Shown piece after piece: positions 20,068 to 22,975 of a DNA stretch of 54,695 nt. Position 1 is the first letter of the stretch; each line of letters starts with the position of its first letter. The stretch covers positions 1-54,695 of the forward strand of contig DATDEH010000124.1 in the NCBI GenBank assembly GCA_036523395.1, in the 5' to 3' direction. Source of the stretch: Candidatus Limnocylindria bacterium. GTDB lineage: Bacteria > Chloroflexota > Limnocylindria > P2-11E. The translations under genes and the position numbers were made by a program. The notes below the pieces were generated by a model. That model was not told the origin of the DNA. It worked only from the letters and a program-made list of their open reading frames with translations, and ran no database searches.

Positions 20068-20873
20068 CGGGCAGCCGCGCACACAGCGCGGCGGATGCGG
20101 CACGATACGCGACCCTCGCCGGTGTCGCCACGCAGACCGCGGTCGCGGTCGGTGATGCGATCGTGCAGACCGAGGTGCAGATCGTGACCCGGAAGAAGGG
20201 CCGCGCCAACTTCGCGACCGCGGCCGACCACGCGGCGGAGAAAGCGATCATCGCGCGTCTTGCCGCGCACGATCCCGCCATACCTGTGCTCGCGGAGGAG
20301 AGCGCGAAGGCTAGGGTCCGCAGGGCCGAACGCCTGTGGGTCGTCGATCCGATCGACGGGACGCTGAACTTCAGCCGCGCGATCCCGTTCTACTGCGTCG
20401 TCATCGCGTACGTCGAAGGCGGACGGACGCGCGCGGCCGCCGTGCACGCGCCGCGCACCGGTGAGACGTTCACCGCCGCGGAGGGACGTGGCGCGACACG
20501 CAACGGCGTCGCGATCAGCGTTGGGTCCGTCACGAAGCTGTCGGAGGCGTTCGCTGTCGCGAGCCTCGCGTTCGGCGTGACGAAGAAGAAGGACTCGCGC
20601 TTCGTCGTGCTGAACTCCACGTGCGCGCGACTGCGGGTACTGGGGACCGCAGCGCTCGAGATGTGCTACGTCGCGATGGGGACGTTCGACCTCTTCGTGC
20701 ACGAAGCGCTCTCGCCGTGGGACGTCGCCGCGTCGGCGTTCATCGCGCGCGAGGCGGGCGCGAGCGTGCTGTCGCTCAAGACCGGCGAGGATGCGGTGTG
20801 GGACGAGCGTCAGATCGTGATCGCAAATCCAAAGCTCGCGCGTGTGGCGATGAAGCTACTGAAGCGCCCATAG
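20064..20873 (+). CDS. Inositol monophosphatase-family phosphatase
   Basis: This 269-aa Mg-dependent phosphatase fold shows the family metal motifs: EES in AEESAK, WVVDPIDGTLNF (first signature) and SPWDVAASAFIAREAG (second signature). The family includes inositol monophosphatase, CysQ (3'-phosphoadenosine 5'-phosphatase) and histidinol phosphatase, and sequence alone does not fix the substrate. It is translationally coupled to the response regulator by ATGA. The tRNA-Leu gene begins 13 bp after its stop. Confidence 0.88.
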   Translation: MTGSRAHSAADAARYATLAGVATQTAVAVGDAIVQTEVQIVTRKKGRANFATAADHAAEKAIIARLAAHDPAIPVLAEESAKARVRRAERLWVVDPIDGTLNFSRAIPFYCVVIAYVEGGRTRAAAVHAPRTGETFTAAEGRGATRNGVAISVGSVTKLSEAFAVASLAFGVTKKKDSRFVVLNSTCARLRVLGTAALEMCYVAMGTFDLFVHEALSPWDVAASAFIAREAGASVLSLKTGEDAVWDERQIVIANPKLARVAMKLLKRP

Positions 20874-20886
20874 AATTGACCCTTGC

Positions 20887-20970
20887 GCCGGAGTGGCGAA
20901 ATGGCAGCACGCGAAGGATTCAAAATCCTTTGGGCGCAAGCCCGTGAGGGTTCGACTCCCTCCTCCGGCA
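20887..20970 (+). tRNA. tRNA-Leu (anticodon CAA)
   Basis: An 84-nt class II tRNA. The acceptor arms GCCGGAG and CTCCGGC pair perfectly, with discriminator A at 20970. The anticodon arm is AAGGA-TTCAAAA-TCCTT with anticodon CAA at 20921-20923, reading UUG. The long variable arm GGGC-GCAA-GCCC is typical of tRNA-Leu, and the T arm is GAGGG-TTCGACT-CCCTC. CCA is not encoded (CAC follows the discriminator). Confidence 0.97.
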
Positions 20971-21678
20971 CACGCTCGTCCGAAGAGATCTAAGGCTCGT
21001 ACGTCGAGGCAGAATCGTCGATTCGTCTGCAACGTACCGACGCCAAACGTCGTGCTTCCGTCTCAGGTGAGGCGCCGAGGTATCTGCGTAAAGCTGAGTA
21101 AGTAGCTCGCGCGACGCTATCTTCGCGAACTCGAGCTTGTAGAGCGGGTGCTTGCGGGTCGCCCGATCGTCAACGCTGATTGCGCCACGGACTGAGAACG
21201 CACCATCCAGGCGTCTGGCTAGCCACTCCAAATGGGGTCTGCTCGCCGAGTAGAAACGCGTGACGAGTCGCGATGCCTTGTGGTTGGGATACCGCCGACG
21301 ATTCGGTGCATGCCAGTAGCAGAGGATCGAACCGTCACCGTCGAGAAGACCCCGCGCCAGAGGCGCCAGGTGCTCGTCAGGTACATCGATCGCGGACAGT
21401 TTGAGGTCTTACGCGGCATCAGCCCGAAGCTTAGAAACCACGAGTGCAGCGGCCGGGTCGTGGATAGCGACCTGGTTCGTCCAAACACCGAAGCCACCGG
21501 GCTTGCGGTAGATCCGCGGTTGACGTCGCACGGCCGTTTTGAACTGATCGATGAGATCAAGCTCCTCCGATGTGAAGGAAACAATCGGTCTTCGGCCGTC
21601 CAGACACCCGTCCGTAGCGATGAGGCCGACTGCATATGCCGTCGCGGCCGACCAACTCCAACCAGTTTCGTGGTCCAC
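20920..21678 (-). pseudogene. LAGLIDADG homing endonuclease, interrupted by an in-frame TAA
   Basis: The frame starts with a GTG at 21678 (reading MDHETGWSW). It shows a first LAGLIDADG helix, YAVGLIATDGCL, followed by IVSFTSEELDLIDQFK. An in-frame TAA (complement of 21409-21411) interrupts it after 89 codons. The same frame then continues with a second LAGLIDADG helix, ARGLLDGDGSI, and YKLEFAKIASRELLTQLY, giving about 250 residues in total. That is the size of a single-chain two-motif enzyme. No frameshift is needed, only the one stop codon. The 3' end reads into the antisense strand of the tRNA-Leu gene and stops inside it, so the original C-terminus is probably lost. Likely a decayed free-standing homing endonuclease. 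Confidence 0.72.
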
Positions 21679-21769
21679 GAGAGCTATGAGAGCGCATTAG
21701 GAACGATTTGTTAGCGCTTGACCACGGCTGTTTCATGCGACAAGCAGTCCCACGTTTGTGCGACACGCC

Positions 21770-22975
21770 TTACAGCGGTAGGCGCACTGTCACCGTCGTT
21801 CCCTTGTCCTCGCCGGGGCTCTCGAGCTGAAGCGAACCGCCGTGCGCTTCGGCGACGAGCTTCGCGACATGCAGGCCGATCCCCATCCCGGCGAACGTGG
21901 ATGCCTTCCCCGCCCCCCGGGTGAACGCCCCACCAAGCCGCGACAGGTCGCCCTCGGGGATCCCGATGCCCTGGTCCGCGATGGCGATCTCCGCCGCTCC
22001 GTTCTTGCGCGCGAGCCGCACCGCAACCTGCCCACCGCGAGGCGAATATTTCACCGCATTCCCCACGAGATTCATGAGCAGCTGGTCGATCCGCGCCTGG
22101 TCACCGTCGTACGTGAGCGTCTCGGGCGCGTCGATCGCAAAGGAGTGCCGACCCTCTTCGCGCGTCGCGGCGACGTAGCGCCCAACGACATCGCGCAGCT
22201 CTCCCGCGAGGTCGAACGGCGCGTTCTCCAATTCGAGCTTCCCACGGCCGGCGCGCGACACGGAGAGAAGGTCGTTGACGAGGCCATTCATCCGATCGAC
22301 CTGGCGCTCGATGGACTCCAGATTGCGCTCCAGCGCCTCGAGATCCATCGGAGTGCGGCGGTCCCGCGAACGCCGCAGCCGACCGAGCTGCAGCTGCGCG
22401 AGCGCCTTCAGCGGCGTGAGCGGGGTGCGCAGCTCGTGGGAGACGATCGACAGGAACTGCTCGCGCTCCCGATCCATCTCGTTGAGCTGTGTGAACAGCC
22501 TGGCGTTGGTGATCGCGATGGAGGCCTGGGCGGCGAGGATGTGCGCGAGATCGCGATCGATCTCGTCGAAATCGCGGTCCGGGCTCCGCGTGTAGATGTG
22601 GAGCGCCCCAAGCAGCTCACCTTCGCGAGCGATCGAGAGGGCGAGGACTTTCGCCAGGCCCTCGGCGCGGATCAATTCCGGGTTCCCGAGCGGCGCCGTG
22701 CGCAGGTCGCGCACCGCCACCGAACCGGGACGCTGGTAGTGGCGCAGCGCACGTTCGAGCGGGATGCGTTGGGACGCGGCGTAGTGGTCGGACAGGCCGC
22801 TGTAGCCACGGATGACAAGAGCGTTCTCTTCGTGGTCGACGACCATGAGCGACGCCGCGTCCGCGCTGTCCAGAGACCGCGCGGCATGCGCCACGGTCAT
22901 GTAGAGCCTGTCCAGATCGAGGATGCCGAGCATCTCGACGGTGACCTCGTGCAGACGCCCGAGACGGTCGCGCAT
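21770..22975 (-). CDS. GAF-domain sensor histidine kinase (soluble)
   Basis: A 401-aa kinase. Residues about 20-165 form a GAF domain. The HisKA domain follows with the phospho-acceptor H180 in FLSIVSHELRTPL. The HATPase domain has the N box NLVGNAVKYSP, G1 DQGIGIP and G2 GMGIGLHVAK. No transmembrane segment is present, so it senses a cytoplasmic ligand or redox state. The ATG at 22975 was chosen. Codons further upstream overlap the end of dnaE and have no domain content. It follows dnaE by 55 bp. The orphan receiver at 19687-20067 is a candidate partner by distance only. Confidence 0.88.
   Translation of the reverse strand: MRDRLGRLHEVTVEMLGILDLDRLYMTVAHAARSLDSADAASLMVVDHEENALVIRGYSGLSDHYAASQRIPLERALRHYQRPGSVAVRDLRTAPLGNPELIRAEGLAKVLALSIAREGELLGALHIYTRSPDRDFDEIDRDLAHILAAQASIAITNARLFTQLNEMDREREQFLSIVSHELRTPLTPLKALAQLQLGRLRRSRDRRTPMDLEALERNLESIERQVDRMNGLVNDLLSVSRAGRGKLELENAPFDLAGELRDVVGRYVAATREEGRHSFAIDAPETLTYDGDQARIDQLLMNLVGNAVKYSPRGGQVAVRLARKNGAAEIAIADQGIGIPEGDLSRLGGAFTRGAGKASTFAGMGIGLHVAKLVAEAHGGSLQLESPGEDKGTTVTVRLPL

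Follow-up and report, generated by a model that had tools for sequence, protein, structure and literature searches.

The open reading frame that abuts tRNA-Leu(CAA) in a 54,695-nucleotide stretch of a Candidatus Limnocylindria contig (hereafter the window) is probably a decayed member of a free-standing, two-domain (monomeric) family of LAGLIDADG homing endonucleases that is dedicated to tRNA-Leu genes and spreads by intronless homing. According to the mechanism that we propose, the enzyme would recognize the tRNA-Leu gene sequence and cut the allele that lacks the element, and repair templated by the occupied chromosome would transfer the endonuclease gene, along with the tRNA-Leu allele next to it, to the broken allele, a case of intronless homing with co-conversion. 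The occupied allele, for its part, would escape cutting through sequence changes in or beside its own tRNA. In the genome of the window, the sites may have become occupied and the endonuclease genes may then have decayed, a course that matches the life cycle of homing endonucleases. Cutting within tRNA-Leu is suggested by the association of these genes with tRNA-Leu loci.

The interrupted gene beside tRNA-Leu(CAA)

An initial annotation of the window described two LAGLIDADG helices, GLIATDGCL and GLLDGDGSI, in one minus-strand frame with a single TAA between them, and a frame that runs into the antisense strand of the tRNA and stops there. All of this is seen in the sequence (Table 1), the frame ending at the stop at 20922-20920 (minus strand) inside the tRNA-Leu(CAA) antisense. 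The enzyme was also taken to be free-standing beside an intron-less tRNA, and this holds, as ARAGORN and Rfam both find the tRNA intact and the frame lies beside it. The gene does not belong with the group I introns, since the window contains no Rfam intron match and the adjacent tRNA-Leu genes contain no intron. The LAGLIDADG assignment was confirmed by a Pfam search, in which the window protein matches PF14528 (LAGLIDADG_3) with a score of 24.4 bits (cut-off 22.5), and comparison with relatives gives 35-44% identity with E values down to 3e-49. On these sequence matches, the LAGLIDADG homology of the window protein is far beyond chance. The -10-like box that precedes the tRNA has similar counterparts before tRNA-Leu in relatives and may serve as its promoter element.

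Table 1. Features of the window in and around the endonuclease gene remains.
Feature	Position	Strand	Basis
-10-like box of the tRNA (TAGAAT), which overlaps the stop codon that ends the upstream inositol-monophosphatase-like open reading frame	20871-20876	+	Sequence
tRNA-Leu(CAA), intact, without intron; locus to which the endonuclease family attaches	20887-20971	+	ARAGORN and Rfam
Run-on of the reading frame into the tRNA antisense, non-homologous	20920-21019	-	Sequence and alignment
Residual LAGLIDADG homing endonuclease gene, the section that aligns with relatives; lacks the N-terminal domain	21020-21657	-	Alignment with relatives and search
Second LAGLIDADG motif, GLLDGDGSI	21325-21351	-	Sequence
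Segment in which the homologous frame is shifted (LHSWFLSFGLMPRK); its CGT-AAG, read in the other frame, contains the TAA at 21409-21411	21408-21449	-	Alignment
First LAGLIDADG motif, GLIATDGCL	21601-21627	-	Sequence
Possible remnant of the upstream region (GTCGCAC... repeats, as before other members); weak	21715-21775	-	Alignment

The TAA had been regarded as a nonsense interruption that left three options: a recent pseudogene, stop codon read-through, or two halves acting as separate chains. In an alignment with 30 relatives, homology spans positions ~21657 to ~21020, and from ~21449 to ~21408 the residues shared with relatives are encoded in the next frame, where the segment matches the family block YRWLxSxGLTPRKSLTLG and provides its invariant W, G and K. 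The TAA (21411-21409) overlaps the AAG (lysine) codon of the conserved PRK motif; it is thus outside the true frame, a by-product of two compensating frameshifts on either side of it, and no nonsense mutation is involved. The copy also lacks the N-terminal ~50 residues of relatives (MGKGWAKGLTxxTDxRVARxAxxHRG). Read-through does not account for a TAA that is out of frame, nor for the missing N-terminal domain. The same loss tells against separate chains, as does the lack of a start for the second half upstream of its own motif: the TTG proposed for this role lies at 21231, downstream of the second motif, so that a product starting there would have no LAGLIDADG helix. With neither a continuous frame nor complete domains, the window copy is, as far as its sequence can be read, dead by any ordinary reading, and of the three options it is the pseudogene that survives.

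We consider it highly unlikely that the gene is intact in the living strain and that sequencing or assembly error produced the interruption. A pair of compensating one-base shifts at short distance is a typical mark of base-calling errors, and the draft genome comprises 128 contigs, but such errors do not explain the missing N-terminal domain. Two further copies in the same genome, beside tRNA-Leu(GAG) and tRNA-Leu(CAG) on contig C74, are also frameshifted, the GAG copy carrying a 61-bp deletion and a 1-bp insertion relative to an intact orthologue from the same genus (91% DNA identity). Thus each of the three copies found in this genome is broken, whereas most copies in relatives are intact. 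Long genes nearby are open, including a dnaE-like open reading frame of 1250 codons, which argues against a general sequencing error.

A LAGLIDADG family adjoining tRNA-Leu genes

Intact homologues beside tRNA-Leu, proposed as a check on the initial annotation, are abundant in relatives. Matches were found in 24 of 101 searched genomes, all belonging to the family of the window or to a sister family of the same order, and ARAGORN places a tRNA-Leu next to nearly all of them. Public genomes were searched (genome_contigs) with a profile of 21 intact members, an alignment query being required as a single-sequence search gave no matches, and the best 80 loci were retrieved. In 74 of these best 80, a list biased toward relatives of the query and sharing many contigs with the 24-genome search so that the two counts are non-independent, an intact, intron-less tRNA-Leu with anticodon CAA, CAG, GAG, UAA or UAG lies within 250 bp. 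The remaining six comprise four that run off a contig end (L127, L146, L163 and L166), a truncated member whose nearest tRNA-Leu is 1.7 kb away (L167) and one that adjoins broken tRNA-Leu halves (L114, 2180-2480); the contig of this last member is binned as Eisenbacteria, resembles the Chloroflexota copies and is probably mis-binned. None of the best 80 has only a non-Leu tRNA nearby, and no LAGLIDADG open reading frame was found beside ~90 other tRNA loci in three genomes. Across 400 genomes of the phylum, a query made of the first half of the window protein preceded by three added letters matched only the known group and one sequence from another family (G110), with no tRNA in the examined neighbourhood.

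The hosts include Chloroflexota, Rokubacteria, several Patescibacteria, Omnitrophota, a Deltaproteobacterium and others. Nearly all of these sequences are metagenome-assembled contigs, in which strain mixing and mis-binning can mimic rearrangements, but one Omnitrophota member (L170) is on a chromosome record and one from Patescibacteria (L136) is on an 831 kb contig, so the association with tRNA-Leu is more than a product of mis-binned fragments. A second, distinct LAGLIDADG family of the YLLGxYLGDG ... LLHSDG type was observed near tRNA-Leu(UAA) or tRNA-Leu(CAA) at L344 (G003), L345 (G018), L346 (G028), L347 (G055) and L348 (G045), and some of its members share the GWAKGLT N-terminal motif.

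The AlphaFold model of an intact relative (L099, pLDDT 89) is a two-domain LAGLIDADG protein whose best PDB match is I-Tsp061I (2dch, E 4e-11), with WhiA also among the structural matches. The defining characters of the LAGLIDADG class are thus found in two places, the pair of helices with an acidic residue in the window motifs and the characteristic fold in the model of the relative. LAGLIDADG was the sole domain detected, with no GIY-YIG nuclease domain; phrog_4645 is matched by all 21 scanned members and PF14528 by 20 of the 21. The acidic residues of both motifs are invariant in 60 sequences. Seven intact gene pairs give dN/dS values of 0.05-0.26 by simple counting, some pairs being near synonymous saturation, and these ratios indicate that the intact copies tested are under purifying selection.

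Arrangements and anticodons, taken from ARAGORN output, follow a limited set of patterns. Within the family of the window, the C-terminal end of the gene nearly always points toward the tRNA. The gene is either upstream on the same strand, with the stop typically 9-17 nt before the tRNA at GAG loci and the gene end overlapping the -10-like box of the tRNA at several loci, or downstream in convergent orientation, in which case it often extends into the antisense strand of the tRNA. In other phyla, the tRNA is followed by the gene head to tail; these members (Patescibacteria, Omnitrophota and a Deltaproteobacterium, all at tRNA-Leu(CAA)) form one clade with a support of 98. The earlier suggestion that recombination near the tRNA 3' end brought in the element is broadly correct but too narrow, as members lie on either side of tRNA-Leu and the family as a whole is dedicated to such loci. 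Their presence on both sides, in three main arrangements, counts against homing by a dedicated family. We also considered the acceptor stem, an inverted repeat present at both tRNA ends, as a candidate recognition sequence. Such a target would account for the usual orientation of the gene, with its C-terminal end toward the tRNA on whichever side it lies, as well as for the tRNA flips described below, but the head-to-tail members of other phyla do not fit.

Clades of the protein tree track the tRNA-Leu isoacceptor and the insertion side across phyla. Isoacceptor changes number 11 on the tree, whereas 1000 shuffles gave 35.5 on average and never fewer than 29, and the pattern is seen both within Chloroflexota (7 versus 13.4 shuffled) and outside it (4 versus 20.1). 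So few changes imply that the enzymes stay with one isoacceptor over long periods, move between phyla and switch on occasion.

Strong hairpins or inverted repeats, possibly regulatory, were observed upstream of several endonuclease starts (L120:2896-2966, L107:2910-2970, L106:2896-2980 and L108:2890-2970; z -3.3 to -6.5). They are weak or absent in other members and in the window, where no significant fold precedes the gene remains, and the exact repeat TTGTCRCAC...GTGYGACAA occurs in only 2 of the 22 copies tested.

Occupied, empty and rearranged tRNA-Leu loci

A census of tRNA-Leu genes was made in 14 genomes of relatives with a tRNA-Leu model, and loci from other genomes were added. Near-complete genomes of the family of the window have five tRNA-Leu genes each, and occupied and empty sites are mixed within genera. 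The GAG site is occupied in G000, G002 and G004 and empty in G001 and G003; the CAG site is occupied in G000 and G003 and empty in G001, G002 and G004. Occupied and empty sites have the same flanking genes. The genes lie outside any intron or intein and beside their presumed target, with occupied and empty alleles among relatives, as in free-standing homing endonucleases. Intact genes under selection, empty sites, pseudogenes and clades that are faithful to their site are together what the homing cycle predicts.

Domestication, in which the protein would have acquired a host function recently lost in this genome, such as DNA-binding regulation (as in WhiA) or the expression of the adjacent tRNA-Leu, appears improbable. 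Strict adjacency to one tRNA identity across phyla, a gene end that in one bacterial family overlaps the tRNA or its -10-like box, purifying selection and the structural match to WhiA could all be accommodated by such a role. However, domestication predicts neither the empty tRNA-Leu loci of close relatives nor the many wrecks, and it sits poorly with several copies at different isoacceptors in a genome and with invariant acids in both catalytic motifs, which a regulator would not need.

The inserted segments measure ~0.7-0.9 kb and contain one open reading frame and no integrase, and this disfavours the view that the endonuclease is the passenger of an integrative element with an attachment site in a tRNA gene, to which we attach almost no weight. 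Transfer RNA genes are usual integration sites, and the CAA locus of G008 (L091) provides an example: the 1.5 kb after tRNA-Leu(CAA) hold an insert with Doc-like and AbrB-like open reading frames, bounded by the complete tRNA and a 20-nt remnant of a tRNA 3' end. This insert represents another element that occupies a similar site. Duplicated tRNA ends are rare, and insertion on both tRNA sides and at tRNA-Leu only is not expected of an integrative element. Insertion into the tRNA with duplication was also tried as a general rule and rejected, as a search for displaced tRNA copies beside all loci gave few matches.

Within the group, some tRNA-Leu genes are in the minority orientation (CAG in G000, G001, G010, G012, G026 and G028; CAA in G002 and G028; UAG in G006 and G016), and the endonuclease is present in all of these genomes except G001. 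Between G000 and G002, tRNA-Leu identity is 77% for CAA and 76% for CAG, and both genes are inverted relative to their flanks; 26 comparable non-Leu tRNAs have a median identity of 99% and one inversion, Pro(UGG) (Mann-Whitney p = 0.0024 for lower identity of Leu, on few, non-independent points). Remnants of older tRNA-Leu genes are present at a few loci. Divergence extends beyond Leu, as Val(UAC) varies across the family; that Pro(UGG) and Val(UAC) have also diverged, so that the effect is not confined to Leu, counts against homing dedicated to tRNA-Leu. The tRNA-Pro(UGG) genes of G000 (L270) and G002 (L296) are 83% identical and inverted relative to their flanks, with no LAGLIDADG open reading frame nearby.

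In most genomes of the family of the window, tRNA-Leu(UAA), like a few CAA, CAG and GAG genes, measures 74-76 nt and has a short variable arm (for example the UAA loci L076, L051 and L047), which is unusual for bacterial tRNA-Leu. At L076, in the genome of the window itself, an older long-arm tRNA-Leu(UAA) persists as its 3' half, in antisense just upstream of the short-arm tRNA-Leu(UAA). At L349 (G020, 1246-2156), half of an endonuclease gene of the YLLGxYLGDG ... LLHSDG type lies between two tRNA-Leu(UAA) genes, one with a short arm and the other long-armed and inverted, and a nearby stretch of ~200 bp is duplicated; this is either a half-completed replacement or an assembly artefact of strain mixing.

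The inversion and replacement of tRNA-Leu at occupied loci with unchanged flanks, the remnants of older genes and the unusual alleles, short-arm forms included, would also suit a mobile unit made up of the endonuclease and its own tRNA-Leu, which destroys the resident tRNA-Leu and replaces it in either orientation. This alternative is possible but doubtful. At the GAG site, the tRNAs of occupied G002 and empty G003 are very similar, near-identical CAA alleles of G002 and G013/G018 adjoin dissimilar endonucleases on opposite sides, and most short-arm UAA genes are now without an endonuclease. We regard it as equally doubtful that the system amounts to a natural cleave-and-rescue drive on an essential tRNA, in which the endonuclease would destroy resident tRNA-Leu genes and a linked, altered tRNA-Leu would take over in either orientation, a process that would have repeatedly reshaped the tRNA-Leu set, short-arm genes included, of one bacterial family.

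Relation to known systems and significance

Free-standing homing endonucleases are known mainly from phages. The nearest mechanism is that of SegB of phages T4/T6, a free-standing endonuclease of the GIY-YIG class in the tRNA region (PMC2988022). It cuts within tRNA genes at the motif RAWTSGAAC and occurs near many tRNA isotypes without preference (PMC13096335), and it promotes inheritance of the tRNA region (PMC2988022, PMC13096335). SegB shares with the present family its position beside tRNA genes, and its motif, in our reading, resembles the tRNA T-loop antisense; it differs in being GIY-YIG, phage-borne and without isotype preference, whereas the present family is LAGLIDADG, resides on cellular chromosomes and adjoins tRNA-Leu only. 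I-Tsp061I, the best structural and profile match, has the same two-motif LAGLIDADG fold, but it is archaeal and intron-encoded with ~22% identity, and the match begins after the N-terminal GKGWAKGLT region of the present family.

LAGLIDADG enzymes of CPR bacteria such as I-ShaI are described within rRNA insertions, tRNA being unmentioned (PMC11270868). These also occur in Patescibacteria and form clades that follow the insertion site across hosts, but they are encoded inside the rRNA insertions and are mostly single-domain dimers (PMC11270868). The general families phrog_4645 and PF14528 hold nothing on tRNA-Leu. Homologues on viral contigs are distant, at 36% identity or less, and in none of 75 such loci does a tRNA-Leu lie 250 bp or less from the nominal position of the match. 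In the open-access literature, subscription papers being outside the scope of the search, we found no description of an endonuclease family dedicated to tRNA-Leu, and a LAGLIDADG family of this kind seems to be undescribed.

A chromosomal, intron-independent family that is confined to one tRNA identity in several phyla would demonstrate that no more than an essential tRNA gene is needed to host a parasite of this type. For this group of bacteria, the family offers a testable reason for the divergence and the orientation flips of tRNA-Leu genes between close relatives. If active, the enzymes would constitute a ready-made series with different tRNA-Leu isoacceptor targets.
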